Assembly: GCA_027493955.1 (NCBI GenBank)
Contig: JAOSJT010000001.1
Span: forward strand, 1,971,131-2,035,130
Length of the DNA: 64,000 bases
Direction of reading: 5' to 3'
DNA from: Bacteroidia bacterium
Lineage (GTDB): Bacteria > Bacteroidota > Ignavibacteria > SZUA-365
Under the pieces are notes generated by a model. That model saw only the letters and a program-made list of their open reading frames with translations, had not been told where the DNA came from and made no database searches. A program made the position numbers and the translations under genes. Position 1 is the stretch's first letter. Each line of letters opens with the position of its first letter. Below, one piece after another: positions 26,702 through 44,701 of the stretch.

Positions 26702-26770
26702 TAAAAAGCCCCTGAAGAACAGGGGCGAGGCGTGAAGCCTACAGAATAATCTTTATTGTAGTAAGCTTTC
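26702..26770 (-). ncRNA. tracrRNA of the type II-C CRISPR system
   Basis: On the minus strand the sequence begins GAAAGCTTACTACAAT (26770-26755). This pairs with the first 16 nt of the CRISPR repeat read on the minus strand (GTTGTAGTTTGCTTTC): 13 Watson-Crick pairs, one terminal G-U and a 2x2 U-U internal loop, the expected upper/lower-stem bulge. It continues AAAGATTATTCT, a small hairpin AGGC-UUCAC-GCCU, and a terminator hairpin GCCCCTG-TTCTT-CAGGGGC (26726-26708) with TTTTT. A promoter at 26777-26805 puts the start at about 26770, exactly at the first paired base, giving a short RNA of about 69 nt. Ends are predicted, not measured. Confidence 0.85.
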
Positions 26771-26776
26771 GCAGTA

Positions 26777-26805
26777 AACATACAAGAACTCCAATACAAT
26801 GTCAA
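26777..26805 (-). promoter_or_regulatory. tracrRNA promoter
   Basis: Minus strand: -35 TTGACA (26805-26800), 17-bp spacer, -10 TATGTT (26782-26777). It lies between the cas9 ribosome-binding site (AGGAG at about 26811) and the anti-repeat, so tracrRNA and cas9 are divergently transcribed from about 50 bp. Confidence 0.75.
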
Positions 26806-29800: not shown

Positions 29801-30079
29801 CTGATGCTCAGCCTGAAACAACGAGACATAGTTGTTCGTTATCATCAACACCCTGATGAAATACGCTGGGACGACATCGATGATCTTAGACCCCGATTGT
29901 ACCGTGTTCGCAAATTCGATGTGAAAGGCATAATCTATCTGGACAATCTATACGCCTCCAAACTGGATGAAAAGGACCGTAACAGTCTCTTTTATGCAGT
30001 GACTCCGGGTACGATTAAAGTTATACCCTCACGAGTGAGCATCCTTGGAAAGCTAAGAACCGATAACAGTGATAGGTGA
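26822..30079 (+). CDS. cas9: CRISPR-associated endonuclease Cas9, type II-C
   Basis: 1085 aa from ATG 26822 with AGGAG 8 nt upstream, the size of compact type II-C Cas9 proteins (Neisseria 1082, Campylobacter 984). All nuclease motifs are intact. RuvC-I is GLDLGTNSVGW (Asp8), RuvC-II is IRVEMARS (Glu491), and RuvC-III is DHRHHAVDA (His748, Asp751). HNH is EIEHILPYSRT with His604 and Asn627 in NRRKGNQ; a Glu replaces the usual Asp before the catalytic His. An Arg-rich bridge helix (about 51-82) precedes a short REC lobe. The C-terminal 250 residues are the WED/PAM-interacting region. It should cut DNA guided by crRNA:tracrRNA. The stop overlaps the cas1 GTG start by 4 bp. Confidence 0.97.
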   Translation: MGKTLGLDLGTNSVGWCLVEDGKQIIASGVRIFPVGVKEDDYVKQGKEVSKNVDRRIARGIRRRRHRYLLRRARLIALLEKHNMMPVLGAVGTRKLYELRRTALDKKIPLADLGRILLMLNKRRGFKSNRKTAVSDDAKKEEGVVKEAIGKLKRDIEETGCRTVGEYFATLFDATDEQKRWHNSDEPIERIRGRFVDRSMYQQEFDLIWAKQSRYYPSILTDDLRHEIRDKVIYFQRPLKSQKGTIGRCRYEPSKRCAPKSGFDFQEFRIWQQLGAVRYDLGTELNQPLTLEQKVLLAEYLAENPKLTRTKARTILRLPASVQFNDVFDLLGNTTAARLKEAIGENTYEALSEDAMRELWHIISFCDDDEKMQAIIERKISRRVLPALNPEQIENIINTKFEDGYGNLSTKAIRKLLPHLRSDMNMYDAAVAAGYGGVGPGTKKIRELDKIPPLKPNELRNPIVQQILTETFKVVNALVREYGKPDMIRVEMARSLKKPKKLREEARYKAQVKQLQREEYAELLSKHFKRRIYANDPEIRKYELWLEMGCKDAGLNDIESFFRNGKIRDAVKYRLWKECDRISPYSGKTISLRRLFSAEIEIEHILPYSRTMNNEFTNLSLCESDINRRKGNQLPYHFFASLGPRELEKFKERVAQFRGIKRHRFLMTEIPEDFLNSQLTNTSYAAREAMERLETLLPPVMNDDGTWHPRVQVMNGQATSNLRRLWGLNSILSNDENPVKNRGDHRHHAVDALVIACTTPRITHDLARYSQFNELSDLSNEHIKAPWRSFRTDAEKVIHGIIISLRNDKRLVSRKPNSIKVKAGKKHPDGKLRQTTVSIRGRLHEETLYGKIQQGGEDVFVHRKPINTFTDGKQLEKVIDKKVREVLQKRVAEFGGNVKQAFSDLENNPVYMYSKTGKRVKINKVRIKASGQQLKLLRETTNTWVDTGNNYAIAIYEDKASGKRSFETIPYFEAVRRTLSGQKVVRESFEGKPLMLSLKQRDIVVRYHQHPDEIRWDDIDDLRPRLYRVRKFDVKGIIYLDNLYASKLDEKDRNSLFYAVTPGTIKVIPSRVSILGKLRTDNSDR

Positions 30080-30969
30080 AGAGAACCATTGTCATAAGTC
30101 AACCATGCCGGATCAATATTTCGAATGATCAGTTGGTCTGTGCCAAGAGCGACGAGAGCACATTAAGTGTGTCGTTTGAGGATCTCGGGATTCTCCTTCT
30201 GGAGACATCTCAGTACATTATAACAGGTGCCGCATTGAGCAGACTGATGGAAGCGAAGGTTGCCGTTATAACTTGTACGGATAATCACCATCCTAATGGC
30301 TTGCTCCTCCCTCTCGCCGGAGGTGGCACGCACACGGAGGTACTGCGAACGCAGGTCGAGGCGAGTCAACCTCTCCGGAAACAACTTTGGAAGGTGACCG
30401 TCAAGGCCAAAATCAGCAACCAGGCGGTATTTTCGAAGCAATGGGGAGATCATGCCGATCCCCTCTTCCGCTGGTCCAAAAAGGTCCGCTCAGGCGATCC
30501 TGATAATTACGAAGCCCGCGCAGCTTCCTGGTACTGGAAACGCTTCCTCGGTAAGACACAGAAATTTCTGCGTGACCCCGAAGGCGATCCTCCGAACTCG
30601 CTACTCAACTATGGGTACGCGATTTTACGGGCAGCAATGGCCAGAGCGGTGGTTTCGTCTGGTCTGCACCCTTCGCTCGGCATTCACCACCGTAATCGCT
30701 ACAATCCGTTTTGTCTGGCCGATGATTTGATGGAGCCCTATCGGCCCTTCGTGGATTCGATCGTGCGCGGCCTGTACTTTGAACAAGGCGAGCACTATCT
30801 CAGCAGAGATGCCAAAGCGGCCTTGTTGAGCGTCTTGACAGCTGATGTACTCATAGCAGGAAACAGGCGCCCCCTGCTCCTCGCCATGAGCATGAGCAGC
30901 AGCTCACTCGCAGAGTGCTACGCCGAGAAATCCGCATCACTTACCTTCCCCACGCCTCATGAGAATTGA
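30076..30969 (+). CDS. cas1: CRISPR integrase Cas1, type II
   Basis: 297 aa from GTG 30076, which overlaps the cas9 stop by 4 bp (GTGA), indicating translational coupling. Landmark metal-site residues are present: Glu146 in [10 protein letters not shown], His204/His205 in [13 protein letters not shown] and Asp216/Asp217 in [12 protein letters not shown]. The N-terminal beta-sandwich and the helical catalytic lobe are of normal length. With Cas2 it integrates new spacers into the array. The gene overlaps cas2 by 11 bp. Confidence 0.95.
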
Positions 30970-31288
30970 CGAGTATCGGATCATGTGGGTACTGGTTTTT
31001 TTCGATTTACCCACGGAAACAGCCGCTGAACGAAAGGCCTACGCGGATTTCCGGAAGAAGCTCATGAAAGATGGTTTCGAAATGTTCCAGTTTTCCATCT
31101 ATCTCCGACATTGCATGAGTCAGGAGAATGCCGATGTCCACACAAAGCGCGTCAAAAGCTTTCTCCCGCCACGCGGGAAAGTCGGTATCCTCAGAATCAC
31201 CGACAAACAGTTTGGGATGATGGAAATTTTTTACGAGGCGAAGCCCAGGGCGGTAAAAGCACCTCCGCAACAACTCGAATTTTTCTGA
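30959..31288 (+). CDS. cas2: CRISPR-associated protein Cas2
   Basis: 109 aa; ATG 30959 lies inside the end of cas1. The ferredoxin-like fold is recognisable from [12 protein letters not shown] (conserved Asp of the first strand), '[19 protein letters not shown]' and the C-terminal strand '[13 protein letters not shown]'. It is the structural partner of Cas1 in spacer acquisition. No csn2 or cas4 follows, so the locus has the minimal type II-C gene set. Confidence 0.93.
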
Positions 31289-31354
31289 TTCCGCAACCGT
31301 AGTCTGGATAGGAGACGGAATTTTCGCCACTAAAACGCTTGTGTAAATGCATCC

Positions 31355-31379
31355 TAAGTCATTTATTTTCAATGACTTA
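31355..31379. terminator. Inverted repeat between cas2 and the array
   Basis: 9-bp stem TAAGTCATT/AATGACTTA with a 7-nt loop (TATTTTC), 11 bp before the first repeat, in an AT-rich segment. It could end the cas operon, end crRNA transcripts coming from the right, or be part of the leader recognised during spacer integration. Confidence 0.5.
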
Positions 31380-31390
31380 AGGAACAATAA

Positions 31391-34300
31391 GCTGTTGCTA
31401 CGATAACAAGATCAAGATTTGAAAGCAAACTACAACTTGCTGTCACAGACAGTCCACAGCCCCGCGGCTGTTGCTACGATAACAAGATCAAGATTTGAAA
31501 GCAAACTACAACAGTGTGTGCGAATATATTCAAGACTTTCATTGCTGTTGCTACGATAACAAGATCAAGATTTGAAAGCAAACTACAACTCTCGGCTATC
31601 CTTGCTGTATCGCATACGCGCTGTTGCTACGATAACAAGATCAAGATTTGAAAGCAAACTACAACCTCCAGCAGGGCAATCGCCCGTTCGGCCTGGCTGT
31701 TGCTACGATAACAAGATCAAGATTTGAAAGCAAACTACAACCTCTGCCTCGTAAACATCCGGAGCGCATTTTGCTGTTGCTACGATAACAAGATCAAGAT
31801 TTGAAAGCAAACTACAACAGGCATTGCATTTGATGTGCATGGTGTGCCGCTGTTGCTACGATAACAAGATCAAGATTTGAAAGCAAACTACAACGGATAG
31901 AGCTTGTCGATGTTGCTACGCAGCGCTGTTGCTACGATAACAAGATCAAGATTTGAAAGCAAACTACAACAACACGACCTCGACCTCGTTCGCGCTGCGG
32001 CTGTTGCTACGATAACAAGATCAAGATTTGAAAGCAAACTACAACTTTCCACATTGTCCAGGCGAGCCCGGCTTCGCTGTTGCTACGATAACAAGATCAA
32101 GATTTGAAAGCAAACTACAACTGCCTGATACATCGGGGTCAATGCGGTGGAGCTGTTGCTACGATAACAAGATCAAGATTTGAAAGCAAACTACAACCTG
32201 CTTGCGCGAATGTTTCGTCGCCGTTATGCTGTTGCTACGATAACAAGATCAAGATTTGAAAGCAAACTACAACGCGTACTGTCAATCGTGACGTTGCCGC
32301 CGAGCTGTTGCTACGATAACAAGATCAAGATTTGAAAGCAAACTACAACCGGAAAGCGTCCACAACGATATCCTTCACGGCTGTTGCTACGATAACAAGA
32401 TCAAGATTTGAAAGCAAACTACAACGACCGCGCCGATGGTGTTCCACTGCGTTCCGCTGTTGCTACGATAACAAGATCAAGATTTGAAAGCAAACTACAA
32501 CAGGATGCCAAACAGCTCCTGCACGCTCCGCGCTGTTGCTACGATAACAAGATCAAGATTTGAAAGCAAACTACAACCCGGGACGCTGGGTGCCGCTCAG
32601 GAAGCGCGCTGTTGCTACGATAACAAGATCAAGATTTGAAAGCAAACTACAACTCGCGGATCGACGGGATGCGGAACGTCACGGCTGTTGCTACGATAAC
32701 AAGATCAAGATTTGAAAGCAAACTACAACTCACGCGCGCTGGTACGCATCATCTGCTGTGCTGTTGCTACGATAACAAGATCAAGATTTGAAAGCAAACT
32801 ACAACCATCGAGACATTTGTGGCCTTGAATGTGGAGCTGTTGCTACGATAACAAGATCAAGATTTGAAAGCAAACTACAACTAAGACCAGAGCATATCCC
32901 AACGCTCCTCTGCTGTTGCTACGATAACAAGATCAAGATTTGAAAGCAAACTACAACTAACGCTAAACTGCGCCGTCACCATCTTAAGCTGTTGCTACGA
33001 TAACAAGATCAAGATTTGAAAGCAAACTACAACAAACGGTCGCTCAGAGCGACGCGCGGCTGCGCTGTTGCTACGATAACAAGATCAAGATTTGAAAGCA
33101 AACTACAACCAAGAATCGCGGAGTAAGCAAGATCGCCAGCGCTGTTGCTACGATAACAAGATCAAGATTTGAAAGCAAACTACAACCTGCAACTCCGCGT
33201 ACAGCTCGGACTCGCGGCTGTTGCTACGATAACAAGATCAAGATTTGAAAGCAAACTACAACATCTCGTCGCGCTTGGGCTGCAACTCCATGGCTGTTGC
33301 TACGATAACAAGATCAAGATTTGAAAGCAAACTACAACCATTGGTGGATGACGGGCACGTTTCTTCCGCTGTTGCTACGATAACAAGATCAAGATTTGAA
33401 AGCAAACTACAACTGATCTTCGCCAGGTCCTCGCCGGGTTTGAGCTGTTGCTACGATAACAAGATCAAGATTTGAAAGCAAACTACAACTGGGGCGTCAA
33501 CGGCATCATCATCAGTCACGCTGTTGCTACGATAACAAGATCAAGATTTGAAAGCAAACTACAACAACGCAGCGTATGCGCGGCACACAGCCGACTGCTG
33601 TTGCTACGATAACAAGATCAAGATTTGAAAGCAAACTACAACACGAAGCCCACGGGGTCGGTTGCTAGATTAGCTGTTGCTACGATAACAAGATCAAGAT
33701 TTGAAAGCAAACTACAACCCGTGAGGAGAGCGGCTTATTCTTCGTCAGGCTGTTGCTACGATAACAAGATCAAGATTTGAAAGCAAACTACAACTAAAGG
33801 CGGGGGATTGTCATATCCAAGTATGCTGTTGCTACGATAACAAGATCAAGATTTGAAAGCAAACTACAACATGTAAACATGTTTTATCCTTATTGCTGTA
33901 GCTGTTGCTACGATAACAAGATCAAGATTTGAAAGCAAACTACAACTGACGGGCCAGATGGGTTCGGGTTCGGGTTGCTGTTGCTACGATAACAAGATCA
34001 AGATTTGAAAGCAAACTACAACTACTGCTCTTGCCTTGCGTAGCTTCGGCGCGCTGTTGCTACGATAACAAGATCAAGATTTGAAAGCAAACTACAACTC
34101 TTGATCCTGCTTCATCGCCAACCGCCACGCTGTTGCTACGATAACAAGATCAAGATTTGAAAGCAAACTACAACTTTCGTCCCTTGCGATTCGTCCGGCT
34201 TCACGCTGTTGCTACGATAACAAGATCAAGATTTGAAAGCAAACTACAACAGATGATTGCCGCACCTCATAAAAAAGACAGCTGTTGCTACGATAACAAG

Positions 34301-37300
34301 ATCAAGATTTGAAAGCAAACTACAACTTTACTCGCTTGAGTTGTTGCATTCATCATGCTGTTGCTACGATAACAAGATCAAGATTTGAAAGCAAACTACA
34401 ACCTGTTTGAATAAATGACCTTGCCTACAATAGCTGTTGCTACGATAACAAGATCAAGATTTGAAAGCAAACTACAACGGTTGCACTCTCTCTCCCAGCA
34501 AGTCACGAGCTGTTGCTACGATAACAAGATCAAGATTTGAAAGCAAACTACAACACGCCAGTACAACGTCTCGTCTCTGAGATTGCTGTTGCTACGATAA
34601 CAAGATCAAGATTTGAAAGCAAACTACAACCGCCGTCGTGGTCTTCAATGGGGCCGTCTGCTGTTGCTACGATAACAAGATCAAGATTTGAAAGCAAACT
34701 ACAACAAATGGTGGGAGATTGCTGTAATCGTGCTTGCTGTTGCTACGATAACAAGATCAAGATTTGAAAGCAAACTACAACTGATCAGCTCGATCGCGCG
34801 ATTGTTCGGCTGCTGTTGCTACGATAACAAGATCAAGATTTGAAAGCAAACTACAACTGGTGCGCTGCTTTTGTTCAATACGCCTACGCTGTTGCTACGA
34901 TAACAAGATCAAGATTTGAAAGCAAACTACAACTGGTGCGCTGCTTTTGTTCAATACGCCTACGCTGTTGCTACGATAACAAGATCAAGATTTGAAAGCA
35001 AACTACAACAAGACGCGGTGGAATTGTCCGGCACTGCCTGCTGTTGCTACGATAACAAGATCAAGATTTGAAAGCAAACTACAACAGTCCGGGTCCCACA
35101 CCTGCACATACGTCGGCTGTTGCTACGATAACAAGATCAAGATTTGAAAGCAAACTACAACCGCCTGGTGGCATCGCCTTACCGCACGCGTGCTGTTGCT
35201 ACGATAACAAGATCAAGATTTGAAAGCAAACTACAACCAATCAATATGAACACTACGCAGGCCAAGTGCTGTTGCTACGATAACAAGATCAAGATTTGAA
35301 AGCAAACTACAACAGATCGCCGCTTTCTCCGCATCGTCGCGGGGCTGTTGCTACGATAACAAGATCAAGATTTGAAAGCAAACTACAACCGAGCGATCAG
35401 GTTCTCATTGAAGTACGAAGCTGTTGCTACGATAACAAGATCAAGATTTGAAAGCAAACTACAACCGATTCGTTGTTGTGAACATACGCTATTTTGCTGT
35501 TGCTACGATAACAAGATCAAGATTTGAAAGCAAACTACAACAAGTCGGATATCTTGCCGGTAATCTCTAGTGCTGTTGCTACGATAACAAGATCAAGATT
35601 TGAAAGCAAACTACAACTGTCAGCACCTATTCCGGTAATGTTTGTAGCTGTTGCTACGATAACAAGATCAAGATTTGAAAGCAAACTACAACTCGGCGGT
35701 CCTTCTAATTGACCGTAGAAATGCTGTTGCTACGATAACAAGATCAAGATTTGAAAGCAAACTACAACGGCAACTGGTTGCTTCCCTCTTGTTTCCCTGC
35801 TGTTGCTACGATAACAAGATCAAGATTTGAAAGCAAACTACAACTCTTTGCGGTTCTTCCCTAATTCGTCAGTGGCTGTTGCTACGATAACAAGATCAAG
35901 ATTTGAAAGCAAACTACAACTGATGCACAGAACGCCGAACCGAGAATGGTGCTGTTGCTACGATAACAAGATCAAGATTTGAAAGCAAACTACAACCCGG
36001 ACTTGAACAGACGGATAATTGGACGGCTGTTGCTACGATAACAAGATCAAGATTTGAAAGCAAACTACAACATAATCTTCGATGGATCAAGCTCACAGAT
36101 AGCTGTTGCTACGATAACAAGATCAAGATTTGAAAGCAAACTACAACACCACGGGGGCGCTAGACAAACGAAAGTAGCTGTTGCTACGATAACAAGATCA
36201 AGATTTGAAAGCAAACTACAACTCGGACGCCCGGGATAGTCCGGATTGCGCGGCTGTTGCTACGATAACAAGATCAAGATTTGAAAGCAAACTACAACGA
36301 GTACAGCGCGACTGTCGCGATGCGGATGGCTGTTGCTACGATAACAAGATCAAGATTTGAAAGCAAACTACAACTATGGATGTAAATGCCGCGCAAGCGC
36401 TTGGGCTGTTGCTACGATAACAAGATCAAGATTTGAAAGCAAACTACAACCGTCTTGATCCTGCTTCATCGCTAGTCGCCGCTGTTGCTACGATAACAAG
36501 ATCAAGATTTGAAAGCAAACTACAACTATGGCGAGCAAAAGCCCTCCCGCGCTGGCGCTGTTGCTACGATAACAAGATCAAGATTTGAAAGCAAACTACA
36601 ACAATCCGAGCCGTTTCGTTTCGGCTTTGATCGCTGTTGCTACGATAACAAGATCAAGATTTGAAAGCAAACTACAACATCCCGATGGAGAGACTGCGTA
36701 CTCACTCAGCTGTTGCTACGATAACAAGATCAAGATTTGAAAGCAAACTACAACTAGTAGACAGCCAGGGCGGACTTCCACGGAGCTGTTGCTACGATAA
36801 CAAGATCAAGATTTGAAAGCAAACTACAACACAATTCAGGAGAGTGCGAAATGTTGTATTGCTGTTGCTACGATAACAAGATCAAGATTTGAAAGCAAAC
36901 TACAACACAATTCAGGAGAGTGCGAAATGTTGTATTGCTGTTGCTACGATAACAAGATCAAGATTTGAAAGCAAACTACAACAAGAGACAAAGCCGGGTT
37001 ACCTTCGCGTCTGCTGTTGCTACGATAACAAGATCAAGATTTGAAAGCAAACTACAACGCCCTGCCTTCGGTTGCTCCGTCGTTCTCGGCTGTTGCTACG
37101 ATAACAAGATCAAGATTTGAAAGCAAACTACAACAAAAGGCGTATGTCTCGTATTCAGCCATCGGCTGTTGCTACGATAACAAGATCAAGATTTGAAAGC
37201 AAACTACAACATTGTGACTGTGGGGCTGGCGAAGCACGGTGCTGTTGCTACGATAACAAGATCAAGATTTGAAAGCAAACTACAACATCCCGATGGAGAG

Positions 37301-38722
37301 ACTGCGTACTCACTCAGCTGTTGCTACGATAACAAGATCAAGATTTGAAAGCAAACTACAACTCGACAGCCCAAATGAAGGTACGCCCTTCCGCTGTTGC
37401 TACGATAACAAGATCAAGATTTGAAAGCAAACTACAACTAATCAGGATGTGTTATTTTCATTAAAATAGCTGTTGCTACGATAACAAGATCAAGATTTGA
37501 AAGCAAACTACAACAAGCAGATAAAGTGCCCCACCCACGCCAATGCTGTTGCTACGATAACAAGATCAAGATTTGAAAGCAAACTACAACCCTTCGTCCT
37601 CAACAGGCTTATCGGGTATGGCTGTTGCTACGATAACAAGATCAAGATTTGAAAGCAAACTACAACCTCTATTTACTCGATGTTCTCAGCCGCCTTGCTG
37701 TTGCTACGATAACAAGATCAAGATTTGAAAGCAAACTACAACCATGGTGCATAAGGTCGTCGATTTCATCTGCTGTTGCTACGATAACAAGATCAAGATT
37801 TGAAAGCAAACTACAACCGCTCTGGTTCAACGATGATACACTGGACCGCTGTTGCTACGATAACAAGATCAAGATTTGAAAGCAAACTACAACTCTCTGA
37901 TTCTGCTGCCGTTTGCATTCAGCGCTGTTGCTACGATAACAAGATCAAGATTTGAAAGCAAACTACAACTCTCTGATTCTGCTGCCGTTTGCATTCAGCG
38001 CTGTTGCTACGATAACAAGATCAAGATTTGAAAGCAAACTACAACCGTGATTGCGTTGGCCGCTGGTGATGTTGTGCTGTTGCTACGATAACAAGATCAA
38101 GATTTGAAAGCAAACTACAACCTTTGGCCAGTAAGTGCAGCAATCCGTTCTGCTGTTGCTACGATAACAAGATCAAGATTTGAAAGCAAACTACAACTGT
38201 TGGCGGTGTATTATCGTATAACGGAGAGCTGTTGCTACGATAACAAGATCAAGATTTGAAAGCAAACTACAACAGAGACAAAGCGGGGCTTCCTTCGCGG
38301 CTCGCTGTTGCTACGATAACAAGATCAAGATTTGAAAGCAAACTACAACAGTTTTACGCTTCCGCAATTCGGGCAAGGTGCTGTTGCTACGATAACAAGA
38401 TCAAGATTTGAAAGCAAACTACAACTTGCCATGATCGGGATCCTTCGGGTTCATTGCTGTTGCTACGATAACAAGATCAAGATTTGAAAGCAAACTACAA
38501 CAATCGTTCAATCAGTTGCCTTGCCTCAAACGCTGTTGCTACGATAACAAGATCAAGATTTGAAAGCAAACTACAACATGAGTGATGCGACAATGTCGAG
38601 AACTGTGGCTGTTGCTACGATAACAAGATCAAGATTTGAAAGCAAACTACAACTGCATTCCATCAGATCCTTGTTTCCCGCGAGCTGTTGCTACGATAAC
38701 AAGATCAAGATTTGAAAGCAAA
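31391..38722 (-). CRISPR. Type II-C CRISPR array, 97 repeats and 96 spacers
   Basis: Repeats are 46 nt and appear identical. On the plus strand each starts GCTGTTGCTACGATAAC and ends GAAAGCAAACTACAAC; the crRNA-sense (minus) strand starts GTTGTAGTTTGC. The last copy (38684-38722) keeps 39 nt and then diverges. I traced every unit: 85 spacers are 30 nt, four are 31 nt (2, 5, 23, 29) and seven are 29 nt (8, 26, 43, 56, 61, 63, 84). Spacers 46/47, 72/73 and 86/87 are adjacent duplicates and 70/78 a distant one, leaving 92 distinct sequences. The degenerate repeat at the right end suggests that the acquisition end is the cas2 side. Strand is set by pairing with the tracrRNA. Confidence 0.97.
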
Positions 38723-38738
38723 AATCGGCATCAAAAGC

Positions 38739-38755
38739 AAGAGGCGCATCCTCTT
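38739..38755 (+). terminator. Hairpin just beyond the truncated last repeat
   Basis: AAGAGG-CGCAT-CCTCTT followed by TT, 16 bp after the last repeat remnant. It looks like a small rho-independent terminator on the plus strand, and would stop any plus-strand (antisense) read-through of the array. Confidence 0.45.
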
Positions 38756-38887
38756 TTCAACTAACAGCGTTCGCGAAAAAGGCCTGCGATCTATATAGTT
38801 AGAGGGATGAAATGCGGCGCCCCGGAATCCCCGATTACGCAACCTTACAAAACCGTAATGCTTCTGTAAGGGAATTGTAAGGTTGCG

Positions 38888-38908
38888 TTCAGTCTTCTGA
38901 AAGGTTCG
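38888..38908 (+). promoter_or_regulatory. Upstream element shared with the lipoprotein gene
   Basis: 19 of 21 positions match 1203-1223 (core CAGTCTTCTGAAAGGTTCG here). It ends 96 bp before the start of the SprB-like gene. Confidence 0.4.
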
Positions 38909-39004
38909 GGAGTGCATCTTACCGCTGTAATTCCGAAGTCTCTCATCAGACGCCTGCCGCGGGATTCACATCCACTGATGATGTAACCACAACCGAGGTA
39001 CGAT

Positions 39005-42000
39005 ATGTGCAAGAGCCTTGCTACCGCCTTTGCATTGTCTCTGCTCTGTGTCTGCTGGATGTCCACGGCACACGCACAGCCCTTGCGCACTGATTTCCGC
39101 CAGGCGGCGAACGACGACAGTCCGCACAATCTGGGGAACGTCCACTGGGTGCAGTCCATTCTGCAGCAGAACAATTCGAAATACTATGAGGGAATGTCTG
39201 TACCTCAACGCATTGTCCTGAGTAACGTCCCGAACACACCGGGTAACCAGCACTCCCTGACCTTCAGTCACAAAGCAAGCAAGGGCGGCGTGCATGCGTA
39301 CGATTTTCTCACCTCGTATCAGCAGGCATTGACCTCTGCCAACGCCATAGTTGGTCCCACCGTTCTGCAGCAGCTCAATGAATGCGGAGCGGGTATCGGA
39401 CCGCCGAACACGCTGCAGGGAGCCTGCAACGAAATACGCAGCAACGGATACTCCGTCAGCGTCGAACTTCCCGACGCGATGGGAACTGTGCTCGGAAACA
39501 ACGTCGCCTCGCGTGTCGCGCAGTATGAAAGCCGCTTCCAAAACCGCACTCTCCGCATCTTTGGCAGTGCGGCCATTTCCAACGCATCGCTTACTTTCGA
39601 AGGATATTCTTTTTCCGGTTCGGATGCGATCGCCGACTACACGCTCCGCTGGACCTCCTCCTCGAACACTGTGCTGATCGAATTCGCCGCGCATCTCGCC
39701 CTCGGCAACGATGTCAGCGGTGCCGGCTGGGGGATCGGCTACGGAAGCGGCATGGGAGCCGGAAGCATCAGCGGTGGCCCTTATCACGTTTCTCTCGGTA
39801 AACTCGATAATCGGCCTTTGGGTAGTCAGGACAATCAGATTTCCAGCGCCGCCGTCATTATCGGCATCGAGTGCAGTTCGACGGGACCCAGTCCCGTATG
39901 CGCCGGGACACAAAACACCTACACCTTCAATAGTCAGGTGAGCGGGTTGAGCTACTCCTGGTCGCTGAGCAACAACAGCAGCGGGGCGTCCATCGTTGGT
40001 TCCACGACGGCGCAGTCCGTTCTCGTGGATGCCGGCACAGGACCGGGCTCCTATACCATCACCGCTGTTGTTCGTGACGGTGTGCAAACCGTGAGCTGTC
40101 CCACACAGGTGAGCGTCAATGGTCTGACGGTGAGCGCAACGCCAGAACCCATACTTTGCAACGGCCACAAAACCCCTGTCACCGTCGAGGCATCAGGAGG
40201 AGTGGCACCCTACACCGGTACGGGTGTGTTCCTGCGTCATGCCGGAACGCACAGTTTTACCGTCACCGACAGTCGCGGCTGCAGCAGTACCGTATCGGTC
40301 ACGATCACCGAACCGATGCAGCTCGCCGCGTCGTCCAGCGCGGCGCCGTTGTTGTGCTCTAACGGCACCTCGGCGGTAACCGTCAACGCCAGTGGCGGTC
40401 GCCCGCCGTACGCCGGTATCGGACAATTCCACCGCGGACCCGGTACGTACACGTTCACCGTATCGGATGCGAATTACTGTGTCGCAACGACATCGGTCAC
40501 CATCGCCGCACCACCACAACTCACGGTCAGCGCAACGGCCACCGATCCGCTGTGTTACGGTGGAACTGCTACTGTTACTGTGGATGCGACAGGCGGAACG
40601 CCACCGTATTCGGGTACGGGAACATTCACGCGCGGTGCCGGAAGCTACGCCTTCGTCGTCACCGACGCCAATGGATGCACCGGCAGTGCAACGATGCTGA
40701 TTTCACAGCCGACCGCCGCACTCATCGCGAGCGCGACCGCAGCTCCCATTCTCTGTTTTGGCGGAACTTCGGCTATCACCGTTTCCGCAACCGGAGGTAC
40801 ACCACCGTACTCCGGGATCGGAGCGTTTTCCCGCGCAGCGGGCACCTATACCTTCACTGTAACCGACGCCAATGGTTGCACAGCAACGACGCAGTCGATT
40901 ACGCTCACCCAACCAACGGCGGGTTTGGTGGTGACTGCAGTGCCGACGCAAATTCTCTGTAAAGGCAGCACAGCGACGGTCACCGTGTCCGCAGTCGGCG
41001 GTACGCCTCCGTACTCCGGTACCGGCAACTTCAGCCGCGGAGCGGGTTCCTACACCTTCACCGTCACCGATGCGAATGGTTGCACCGCGACTTCGGCGCA
41101 GATCACGTTGACCGAACCGCCGCTGCTCGTGGTGGACGCCGACGTCACACCCATTTCCTGCCACGGTGGTTCCGCATCGGTCACAATAACGGCAAGTGGA
41201 GGCACGCCCCCGTACACCGGTACAGGGACCTTCGCGCTCGCACCGGGCAATTACTCCTTCACCGTCACCGACGCGAACGGCTGTACTGCGACCACATCCG
41301 CCATAGGAATAAGCGCGCCGCCGCAACTGACTGTTTCGGTTGTCGCTCCTCCGATTCTTTGCAACGGTGGAACATCGAACGTAACCATCACGGCCGGCGG
41401 TGGTACGCCGCCGTACTCCGGTACCGGGACCTTCCCCGTCAGTGCGGGTGCACACAGCTTCACCGTCACCGACGCTAACGGTTGTACCGCGACCTCACAA
41501 ATGATTACGCTCACCGCACCGTCAGCGCTCACCGCGTCCGCAACCGCCGGAACGATACTGTGCAACGGCGGGCAAATACCCGTCACTGTCACCGCTTTCG
41601 GTGGTACGCCTCCGTACTCCGGAACCGGCAACTTCAGCCGCGGAGCGGGCAGCTATACCTTTACCGTGACAGACGCGAATGGCTGTACGGCAACAACGGT
41701 CGCGCTTACTCTCACAGAGCCACCACCCATGGTGCTCACTGTGAACGCATCACCGATTCTCTGTAATGGAAACACCTCCGTTGTCAACGTGTCGGCGACC
41801 GGTGGTACGCCGCCGTATTCCGGGACAGGGACGTTCAATCTTCCCGCAGGCAATTATAGCTTTACGGTCACGGATGCCAACGGCTGCACGGTCACTTCAT
41901 CAGTCACTACTCTGACCAATCCGGCTCCGTTGGTCGTGTCGGTAAGCGCACAGCCGATTTTGTGTCACGGAGACAGTGCGATCGTCACCGTAACGGCGAC

Positions 42001-44701
42001 AGGCGGTACACCTCCCTATTCCGGGACGGGGAACTTCACCCGTGGTCCCGGTTCGTATAGCTTCACAGTGCTCGACAACAATGGCTGCTCGGCTACGAGC
42101 ACATCCATTTCGATTACACAACCACAATTCGCTCTTACAGTTTCCGCTACGGCGACACCCATTCTCTGCTTTGGATCCAGCTCGACAGTGAGCGTCTCCG
42201 CAAGTGGAGGCACGCCGCCGTACTCTGGTACCGGCAACTTCAACCGGACTGCGGGGACGTACAGCTTCACTGTCACCGATGCGAACGGCTGCACCGCAAC
42301 CTCCGCGTCGATCAACATTACTCAGCCTCCGCAATTGCTGGTCAGCGCGACCGCACCGCCGATTCTCTGCAACGGTAACCTCACCACGGTCACCGTGAGT
42401 GCATCGGGTGGGACGCCTCCGTACACCGGAACCGGATCCTACACCCGCGGCGCAGGCAGCTACACGTTCACAGTTACCGACGCCAACGGCTGCACCGCCA
42501 CCTCGTCGGTGACCACAATTCTACAGCCCGCCCTGCTGGTTGTGGATGTCGACGCTCCGCCTATCCTCTGCCATGGCGGCACGTCCATTGTTACCGTAAG
42601 CGCGAGCGGCGGCACCGCACCCTACACCGGAACGGGCAGCTTCAATATGGGACCGGGCAATTACACATTCACCGTTACAGACGCGAACGGCTGTATCGCG
42701 GTTTCCGCAATGATAACGCTGACCGATCCTCCGGCCCTGACCGCAACTTCAGCCGCAACCCCGATTCTCTGCCATGGTGGTACTTCAACGGTTACTGTCA
42801 GCGGCGCGGGCGGCACTCCGCCGTATGCAGGCGTCGGGATGTTCAACCGTGGAGTGGGTACCTACACGTTCGTGGTGACCGATGCGAATGGTTGCACCGC
42901 TTCGACCACTATCACCATCACACAACCGCCCCTTCTCGTGGCTGTCGCAGCTGCGCCTCCACTTGTGTGCGGCAAGGATCTCGCCCCTGTCACCGTTTCG
43001 GCCACAGGCGGCGTCGCGCCGTACAACGGTATCGGCACCTTCCCACGCGGACTGGGCACCCATCTCTTCATCGTCACCGATGCTAACGGTTGCACCGACT
43101 CCGTACGCATCACGGTCACGGGGCCACCGCCCCTCTTCGCTGCAGCGAACGCCACACCAATTCTTTGCAATGGCGGCCTGAGTACGATTACCGTCAGCGC
43201 TTGGGGCGGAACGCCACCGTATACCGGCGTCGGATCCTTCCAGCAAGGGGCGGGCACCTATACGTTTATCGTCAGCGACGCGTACAATTGCCGCGACACC
43301 GTGGTGGTGACACTCACGGAACCACCGGCATTGATTGCAACCGCCGATGCCCCGCCAATACTTTGTGCCGGCGGTACAACGACGGTTACCGTCGCGGCCA
43401 GTGGAGGTACGCCTCCATACACCGGAATCGGGTCGTTCAGCCGCGGTCCGGGAACGTACACCTTTGTTGTGACGGACTACAACGGCTGCACAGCAGTGGC
43501 ATCAGTCAATATCATCGATCCTCCACCGCTCACAGCGGCATCGAGCGCAACCCCCATCCTCTGTTTCGGCGACACGGCCTTCGTTACTGTGACAGCTTCC
43601 GGAGGTACGCCACCGTATCAGGGCACCGGACTATTTCCGGCGTTGGCGGGCACGTTCACCTACGTCGTTTCGGATTCACGGGGCTGTTCGGCTAGCACGA
43701 CAATCACCATAACGCAACCACCCCAACTCTTCGCCACCGCAAACGATCCTTCCGTCGCCTGCGGCCGCGACAGCGCACTCGTGATCATCGGTGCCATAGG
43801 CGGTACTCCGCCGTACAGCGGCGTCGGTAATTACTATCGGACAGGTGGTACGCACATCTTCACCGTGACGGATGCGAACGGCTGCACCGATACCGTCCGG
43901 GTAACCGTGCAGGGTCCGCCGCCGCTGTATGCGACGGCCGGCGCCACGCCGATACTGTGCAATGGCGGCTCATCCATCGTCACCATTTCTGCCTGGGGCG
44001 GCACCCCGCCATACAATGGCGTGGGGAACTTCCAGGTCGGAGCGGGTACGCACAGGTTCGTGGTGCATGATGCGAATTCATGCGCCGACACCGTGATCAT
44101 CACCATCGTCGAGCCGCCTCCTCTCACCGTGGTCTGCAGCCTTTCGGACTGCATAAACGGAATGCGCATTGCTTCCGCCCAGGTCTACGGAGGTACCCCA
44201 CCCTACAGTTACCATTGGATGCCGTTCGCGATGCCGACACCGACTGTGGACGTCCCCTGCAATTTCTTTGGCACAATCACTCTCGTTGTGCGGGATGCCA
44301 ACTGGACACCCAATGATCCGAACAATGCTGCCTGCGAAGCGACATGCACTATTAATGTGTATGCAAAATCCTCCGCCGGCGGATCGGACGGACAGAAATC
44401 TCTCAGCGAATACGCTCTGTTCGAGAACTACCCCAACCCGTTCAATCCTACCACCACGATCAGGTACTATTTGCCAACAACGAGCCATGTACGCCTCGCG
44501 ATTTACAACACCCTTGGTCGCGAGATCGGCACTTTGGTCGACGCGGAGATTCCCGCGGGTTTACATGATGCCACATGGACCATCACGGCCGAGCAAGGCC
44601 GTCAGATACCTTCGGGCAGTTACATCTATCGCCTCAGCGCAAAATCCACAGACGGCAGCAGAGAATTCGTGCAAGAGAAGATGATGCTGCTGCTCAAGTA
44701 G
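39005..44701 (+). CDS. Giant T9SS-exported protein with SprB-like repeats
   Basis: 1898 aa from ATG 39005. A signal peptide (FALSLLCVCWMSTAHAQ) leads to a unique N-terminal domain (about 25-290). One PKD/Ig-like module follows (about 295-375, 'YTFNSQVSGLSYSWSLSN'). Then come 20 consecutive SprB-type repeats of about 66-67 aa (residues about 376-1707), each with ILCNGG...TVTVSASGGTPPYSGTG...FTVTDANGC, and a 21st divergent unit. The C-terminus is a canonical T9SS type A sorting domain starting NYPNPFNPTT (Pro1810-Phe1813). In Flavobacterium, SprB is the gliding adhesin; this protein is much shorter and may be a general adhesin. Two Cys per repeat (ILC and NGC) could form disulphides. Confidence 0.9.
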   Translation: MCKSLATAFALSLLCVCWMSTAHAQPLRTDFRQAANDDSPHNLGNVHWVQSILQQNNSKYYEGMSVPQRIVLSNVPNTPGNQHSLTFSHKASKGGVHAYDFLTSYQQALTSANAIVGPTVLQQLNECGAGIGPPNTLQGACNEIRSNGYSVSVELPDAMGTVLGNNVASRVAQYESRFQNRTLRIFGSAAISNASLTFEGYSFSGSDAIADYTLRWTSSSNTVLIEFAAHLALGNDVSGAGWGIGYGSGMGAGSISGGPYHVSLGKLDNRPLGSQDNQISSAAVIIGIECSSTGPSPVCAGTQNTYTFNSQVSGLSYSWSLSNNSSGASIVGSTTAQSVLVDAGTGPGSYTITAVVRDGVQTVSCPTQVSVNGLTVSATPEPILCNGHKTPVTVEASGGVAPYTGTGVFLRHAGTHSFTVTDSRGCSSTVSVTITEPMQLAASSSAAPLLCSNGTSAVTVNASGGRPPYAGIGQFHRGPGTYTFTVSDANYCVATTSVTIAAPPQLTVSATATDPLCYGGTATVTVDATGGTPPYSGTGTFTRGAGSYAFVVTDANGCTGSATMLISQPTAALIASATAAPILCFGGTSAITVSATGGTPPYSGIGAFSRAAGTYTFTVTDANGCTATTQSITLTQPTAGLVVTAVPTQILCKGSTATVTVSAVGGTPPYSGTGNFSRGAGSYTFTVTDANGCTATSAQITLTEPPLLVVDADVTPISCHGGSASVTITASGGTPPYTGTGTFALAPGNYSFTVTDANGCTATTSAIGISAPPQLTVSVVAPPILCNGGTSNVTITAGGGTPPYSGTGTFPVSAGAHSFTVTDANGCTATSQMITLTAPSALTASATAGTILCNGGQIPVTVTAFGGTPPYSGTGNFSRGAGSYTFTVTDANGCTATTVALTLTEPPPMVLTVNASPILCNGNTSVVNVSATGGTPPYSGTGTFNLPAGNYSFTVTDANGCTVTSSVTTLTNPAPLVVSVSAQPILCHGDSAIVTVTATGGTPPYSGTGNFTRGPGSYSFTVLDNNGCSATSTSISITQPQFALTVSATATPILCFGSSSTVSVSASGGTPPYSGTGNFNRTAGTYSFTVTDANGCTATSASINITQPPQLLVSATAPPILCNGNLTTVTVSASGGTPPYTGTGSYTRGAGSYTFTVTDANGCTATSSVTTILQPALLVVDVDAPPILCHGGTSIVTVSASGGTAPYTGTGSFNMGPGNYTFTVTDANGCIAVSAMITLTDPPALTATSAATPILCHGGTSTVTVSGAGGTPPYAGVGMFNRGVGTYTFVVTDANGCTASTTITITQPPLLVAVAAAPPLVCGKDLAPVTVSATGGVAPYNGIGTFPRGLGTHLFIVTDANGCTDSVRITVTGPPPLFAAANATPILCNGGLSTITVSAWGGTPPYTGVGSFQQGAGTYTFIVSDAYNCRDTVVVTLTEPPALIATADAPPILCAGGTTTVTVAASGGTPPYTGIGSFSRGPGTYTFVVTDYNGCTAVASVNIIDPPPLTAASSATPILCFGDTAFVTVTASGGTPPYQGTGLFPALAGTFTYVVSDSRGCSASTTITITQPPQLFATANDPSVACGRDSALVIIGAIGGTPPYSGVGNYYRTGGTHIFTVTDANGCTDTVRVTVQGPPPLYATAGATPILCNGGSSIVTISAWGGTPPYNGVGNFQVGAGTHRFVVHDANSCADTVIITIVEPPPLTVVCSLSDCINGMRIASAQVYGGTPPYSYHWMPFAMPTPTVDVPCNFFGTITLVVRDANWTPNDPNNAACEATCTINVYAKSSAGGSDGQKSLSEYALFENYPNPFNPTTTIRYYLPTTSHVRLAIYNTLGREIGTLVDAEIPAGLHDATWTITAEQGRQIPSGSYIYRLSAKSTDGSREFVQEKMMLLLK
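40130..44125 (+). repeat. Tandem ~200-bp coding repeats (20 units)
   Basis: Twenty tandem units averaging 199.8 bp encode the SprB-like modules. The most conserved DNA stretch codes for GGTPPYSGTG and FTVTDANGC. Central units 4-14 are closest to each other, outer units more divergent, as expected if expansion happens in the middle. Confidence 0.85.

Follow-up and report, generated by a model that had tools for sequence, protein, structure and literature searches.

A candidate primary-sigma promoter within the repeats of type II-C CRISPR arrays in Bacteroidota and their relatives

Because a promoter element is conserved in the repeats of related arrays, and no promoter signal stands out in the sequence upstream of such arrays, transcription of each unit from its own repeat, towards cas2, is the best explanation for this family of type II-C CRISPR arrays, and the comparison supports it well. 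The array that led us to this family lies in a 64 000 nt stretch of DNA (here called the window), and promoters within its repeats, made up of a TTG at repeat nt 9–11 and a TA at nt 32–33 separated by 20 nt, probably drive its transcription. II-C repeat promoters were already known; the phylum-specific form described here, and its occurrence in two registers, appear to be new.

The locus and its array

The locus is of type II-C, with cas9, cas1 and cas2, and the host genome belongs to the Bacteroidota group (Table 1). No other gene separates the three from one another or from the array, and neither csn2 nor cas4 was found in the cas9-cas1-cas2 locus beside the array. Of the repeats, 96 are identical and one, at the distal end (start 38684), differs at 5 of 46 positions; an earlier sequence-only reading had ended the array at 38722, which cuts into this distal repeat. 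The repeat in crRNA sense, on the minus strand, is GTTGTAGTTTGCTTTCAAATCTTGATCTTGTTATCGTAGCAACAGC. Most of the 96 spacers are 30 nt long (85), with seven of 29 nt and four of 31 nt. Four spacers are present twice, in the tandem pairs 10/11, 24/25 and 50/51 and the separated pair 19/27 (numbered from the distal end).

Table 1. Features of the II-C locus in the window
Feature	Position	Strand	Remarks
tracrRNA	26703..26770	-	upstream of cas9; ends in GC hairpin and T run
tracrRNA promoter, TTGACA-N17-TATGTT	26777..26805	-	full host-type
cas9, 1085 aa	26822..30079	+	TIGR01865
cas1, type II (NMENI-like)	30076..30969	+	TIGR03639
cas2	30959..31288	+	TIGR01573
Hairpin in leader, between cas2 and last repeat	31353..31382	-	fold of 31300-31390, z = -2.5
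Type II-C CRISPR array, 97 repeats of 46 nt, 96 spacers	31391..38729	crRNA sense -	sense strand from anti-repeat
-10-like TATCGT, repeat nt 32-37	31400..31405	-	cas2-proximal unit shown; off host TAnnTT at position 5
-35-like TTGCTT, repeat nt 9-14	31423..31428	-	cas2-proximal unit shown; in every unit
First (oldest, crRNA-5') repeat	38684..38729	-	changes at nt 2, 3, 5, 6 and 7; promoter-like half retained
Terminator-like hairpin just upstream of array on crRNA strand	38739..38755	-	weak; 0.5 expected by chance

The anti-repeat (26770–26755) pairs with repeat nt 1–16 around a 2 nt internal loop, as in II-C tracrRNAs. Its duplex with the minus-strand repeat was calculated at -19.3 kcal/mol, including weak, short extra pairing near nt 35–40, against -14.6 kcal/mol with the antisense repeat. 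As the anti-repeat pairs better with the minus-strand repeat, we conclude that the crRNA sense is minus and that transcription would run towards cas2. The tracrRNA is predicted to start 7 nt past its promoter box, where the anti-repeat has its first base, so no 5' processing would be needed, and this fits the unprocessed tracrRNA proposed earlier.

Between the array and the next gene there is a strong imperfect palindrome (38830–38905, fold z = -5.0) that may act as a terminator in both directions or be left over from a mobile element. The gene adjoining the array (39005–44701, plus strand) encodes a 1898 aa protein with many near-identical repeats, and its C-terminal motif resembles a type IX secretion sorting signal. 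A search of 11 further genomes from the same family gave no relative of the Cas9; thus, the locus either arrived here by transfer or disappeared from the others.

The host consensus and the window repeat

Host promoters were sampled from 1.2 Mb of the genome outside the window together with the window without the array. Genes were called by a simple codon score, giving 463 upstream regions, of which 275 are non-divergent. In the 275 regions, TTG-N20-TAnnTT occurs 44 times in the forward and twice in the reverse direction; gaps of 19 nt (9 forward, 2 reverse) and 21 nt (9 forward, 0 reverse) were also seen. TATAAT is rare in the host upstream regions (2 forward, 1 reverse). At position 5 of the -10 box in TTG-N20-TAnnXT, the forward and reverse counts over all 463 regions were 80 and 13 for T, 15 and 7 for A, 2 and 2 for C and 1 and 3 for G. 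The host primary sigma factor (locus L003) is presumably of the short Bacteroidota type.

The sequence-only reading had found TTGCTT (repeat nt 9–14), a 17 nt gap, TATCGT (nt 32–37) and a TG at nt 29–30 on the crRNA strand, and had interpreted them as -35, extended -10 and -10 elements. The motif is there as described. Against the E. coli consensus, TTGACA/TATAAT, the repeat matches at 7 of 12 positions, a score equalled or beaten by approximately 84% of 20 000 full shuffles and likewise reached by the antisense strand. A consensus promoter scan of the array returned no repeat-borne promoter, only four spacer-dependent matches, all on the plus strand, where 10.9 were expected. The E. coli hexamers were rejected as a criterion: they perform at chance level, and theirs is the wrong consensus for this host. 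Nor does the TG carry any weight here, as TGnTAnnnT shows no excess in 160 host upstream regions (18 forward, 18 reverse).

By the host consensus TTG-N20-TAnnTT, which is the one that applies, the window repeat scores 3 of 4, a value reached by approximately 49% of tail shuffles. The gap between the TTG (nt 9–11) and the TA (nt 32–33) is exactly the host spacing. The full TAnnTT box is absent, since TATCGT has a G at position 5, and the base before the TA is a T, which has a frequency of 0.07 in host sites. Taken alone, the motif in the window repeat is at chance level, and its only weight comes from relatives that have the canonical element at the same place. As position 5 of its -10 box is off the host consensus, the window promoter may be weak.

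Elsewhere in the repeat, nt 5–12 of every unit (e.g. 31425–31432, minus strand) read TAGTTTGC, which fits TAnnTT and also TAnnTTGY, the Flavobacterium psychrophilum alternative motif SM5 as given in an excerpt of its description, and the same sequence is found in GTTGTAG-type repeats.

Two registers in related arrays

Related Cas9s were found at 79 loci in a scan of named genomes. A CRISPR array accompanies 56 of these; 22 of the 79 were without an array by script. Of 57 array rows, L154, which is a tandem repeat and no CRISPR array, and L094, with its truncated consensus, were left out, leaving 55 for shuffle scoring. The cluster count used 58 rows, with L094, G295 and G458 added, which form 42 clusters at 85% identity. 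TTG-N19-21-TAnnTT is carried by 27 of the 42 clusters, where 4.0 were expected; on the antisense strand it was found in 4 of 42.

The element occurs in two registers. In the first, which is that of most Flavobacterium, Bacteroidales and Prevotella repeats, the TTG at nt 2–4 (within GTTG) is followed after 19 nt by TAnnTT at nt 24–29, and some of these repeats (L133, L137 and L151) have the full TAnnTTTG. In the second, found in the nearest relatives of the window locus, TAnnTT follows the TTG at nt 9–11 after 19–21 nt. All seven arrays of this nearest group, the window array included, have TA at that distance from the TTG at nt 9–11 (2.4 expected, P 0.0012), and five of the seven have a complete TAnnTT (0.47 expected): TATTTT in L094, TACATT at the end of a 36 nt repeat in L096, TAGATTTG in both L098 and G295, and TATGTT in L102. 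The sixth relative, G458, has TAATGT, which is off consensus at position 5 like the window repeat. The register of these six nearest arrays upholds the location first proposed for the promoter, and its reading as an E. coli-type -35/-10 pair gives way to the host consensus.

A held-out set was fetched later using repeat nt 1–16, and eight loci with fewer than three repeat copies were skipped. The 22 arrays obtained gave 15 clusters once those resembling one another or the first set at 90% or more had been dropped. Eight of the 15 carry TTG-N19-21-TAnnTT in one of the two registers, against 1.5 expected and a maximum of 7 in 3000 shuffles. Clusters without the element (15 of 42 in the wider set and 7 of 15 held out) include many with a TTCTTTGA-type middle, and several are titled Ignavibacteria or Melioribacter.

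Five solo repeats were excluded from the array counts; the full box is found in L222 and TAnnGT in L215 and L217, with neither in L213 and L223. Two arrays from entries titled Alphaproteobacteria, L158 and L169, have 36 nt repeats that end in TGCTACAAT, an E. coli-like extended -10 unlike the Bacteroidota repeats, so the type of promoter seems to follow the host. A Campylobacter-like layout also exists within the group: the 36 nt GTTGTAG repeats of L219 and L242 (G485) have a -10-like TACATT at the very end of the repeat.

The terminal repeats were also compared. The window array has a degenerate crRNA-5' repeat with five changes and an intact last repeat, as in other II-C arrays, and this is the same pattern of end-repeat changes as in Feussner et al. 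2025, where, in the portion of the paper drawn on here, the first repeat is mutated mostly in its first 15 nt and the last repeat is the acquisition site (PMC12080349). An identity threshold had biased the detection of first repeats, and this was redone with ranking by the inner 15 nt. The first repeat is changed in 25 of 37 judgeable arrays, with 74, 49, 41, 20, 12, 1, 6, 3, 6 and 0 changes in successive 5 nt bins, and the last is intact in 56 of 57 arrays. Of 17 degenerate first repeats of site-bearing arrays, 15 keep the -10 in register, and 16 do so when a displacement of one base is allowed; the expectation under a uniform-breakpoint model is 12.6, which makes the excess modest (P 0.036). 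The TTG is lost in 14 of the 17 and kept in three. The pattern weakly suggests a need for the -10 half over the handle, and gives the TTG no support for the oldest spacer. Retention in the first repeat was rejected as a strong test, as its P value is only modest and few of these repeats retain the TTG. In the same portion of that paper, it is suggested that such decay of the first 15 nt may keep an additional crRNA from being made (PMC12080349).

Other explanations, known systems and implications

The repeat promoter could have decayed in the window array, leaving one long precursor made from an unrecognized distal promoter and cut by tracrRNA and RNase III. This is a possibility we consider real though unlikely. 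It would account for the chance-level score of the window repeat taken alone and for its off-consensus TATCGT, whose form, TTG-N20-TAnnGT, is found once forward and three times in reverse in the 463 host regions. However, no host-type promoter points into the array in 38600–39300, the array is immediately preceded on the crRNA strand by a weak terminator-like hairpin, the newest spacers would be more than 7 kb from a distal promoter, and G458 shares TAnnGT at the same place. The leader on the cas2 side has no host-type promoter on either strand. Across the 33 arrays with 200 nt of upstream sequence there is no upstream promoter signal (6 of 33 forward, 7 of 33 reverse), while the repeats of 21 of the same 33 carry the TTG-N19-21-TAnnTT site. 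A host-type distal promoter upstream of the array was rejected on the grounds of the empty 38600–39300 interval and the lack of any excess in the 33 arrays.

The element in the relatives might instead be a by-product of constraints on the RNA, namely tracrRNA pairing and an AT-rich tail, with no promoter involved. In many Bacteroidota the anti-repeat pairing extends to about repeat nt 26–28 and so overlaps the TA of the first register. Even so, when only the repeat from nt 27 onwards, past most of the tracrRNA pairing, was shuffled, the 27 of 42 clusters still compared with 4.0 expected, and the longer TAnnTTTG is found in 9 of 42 clusters against 0.2 expected. At the window locus the pairing stops at nt 16 apart from the weak extra pairing. 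We therefore regard this explanation as improbable.

Recognition of TATCGT by an alternative sigma factor of the ECF type is very unlikely. The genome has 18 matches to sigma-70 region 2, and the SM6 motif of F. psychrophilum ECF promoters has a CGT -10 box according to an extract of the source (PMC9723704), yet CGT has no clear trimer partner upstream of host genes (the best pairs among 512 combinations occur 25–27 times forward against 6–8 in reverse), and most of the nearest relatives have primary-sigma boxes at the same place. Least credible is a -10 at TAGTTT (repeat nt 5–10) with its -35 supplied by the preceding spacer, so that only some units are promoters: the sequence fits TAnnTT and four spacers give TTG at the right distance, but random spacers seldom do, which would leave most of the 96 units without a promoter, and TAGTTT lies inside the tracrRNA-pairing region, which explains it.

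That every repeat has its own promoter, directing transcription towards the cas genes, had been proposed for this array on the strength of the E. coli hexamers and the extended -10. Those grounds fail, and the claim now finds its support in the comparisons (27 of 42 clusters, 8 of 15 held out and no upstream signal). Under per-repeat transcription, minus-strand transcription of the window array would proceed from its distal, oldest end to cas2, with each repeat's promoter recognized by the host Bacteroidota-type primary sigma factor. The off-consensus TATCGT would still have to work, and transcription would probably start near repeat nt 44. The primary transcript would then consist of the last few repeat bases, the spacer and the next repeat, nt 1–16 of which would pair with a tracrRNA starting at its own anti-repeat, and crRNA production would be independent of RNase III.

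In N. meningitidis, II-C arrays reportedly have a promoter in every repeat, and the repeats of this species and Campylobacter jejuni are 36 nt long. The window locus resembles both in its cas9-cas1-cas2 order, an array read against the cas genes, a putative in-repeat promoter and a tracrRNA. It differs in that their repeat is shorter and has an extended -10 at its 3' end, whereas the window repeat is 46 nt, its box lies at nt 32–37 and stops 9 nt short of the repeat end, the consensus that applies is the Bacteroidota one, and the host shows no TGn signal. According to a portion of the C. jejuni study, each repeat holds a promoter, starts are at spacer position 5 and the repeat ends in GGTAAAAT (PMC3656092). 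Passages of two further papers give a promoter in every II-C repeat as a general rule (PMC12080349; PMC13187072); the portion of Feussner et al. 2025 drawn on here identifies neither the promoter sequence nor a match to a host sigma factor (PMC12080349).

Closer at hand, the arrays of Flavobacterium columnare and F. psychrophilum belong to the same phylum-level group and have long repeats like the window array. In excerpts of the reports on them, a repeat promoter is proposed, with TTG 33 or 35 bp upstream of each spacer, and eight array reads are given for F. columnare (PMC8092290, PMC10309648). These excerpts name only the TTG for the repeats, whereas here a matching TAnnTT lies at a fixed distance; among the Flavobacterium repeats examined, its partner is for the most part the other TTG, which belongs to the 5' GTTG. 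For Riemerella, the part of the report consulted states that promoters were not found in the repeats (PMC5006608). No description of a TAnnTT(TG) box inside such repeats was found in the portions of the openly licensed literature searched, and CRISPR is not mentioned in the main text, as far as it was available, of the paper mapping F. psychrophilum start sites.

On balance, we lean slightly towards a general reading in which the II-C repeat of Bacteroidota and their relatives serves three functions, as handle for the tracrRNA, as site of integration and as a complete primary-sigma promoter, with either TTG of its conserved 5' part (nt 2–4 or 9–11) as the -33 element and TAnnTT(TG) 19–21 nt downstream. 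Lineages would switch between registers, and the promoter would follow the host sigma factor and not the Neisseria layout. Transcript 5' ends would then lie about 10 nt before the spacer in the first register, near the boundary in the second and inside the spacer in 36 nt repeats. Such a reading would help to explain the repeat length of 46–48 nt and how promoters were missed in Riemerella with other tools, and would reconcile that report with those naming only a TTG in F. columnare and F. psychrophilum repeats. It would also pinpoint the bases to mutate. When these Cas9 systems are moved into E. coli, their native arrays may be silent there. In the bacteria themselves, crRNA supply across a phylum-level group would be set by a promoter that each new spacer receives automatically, and would not be diluted by array length.
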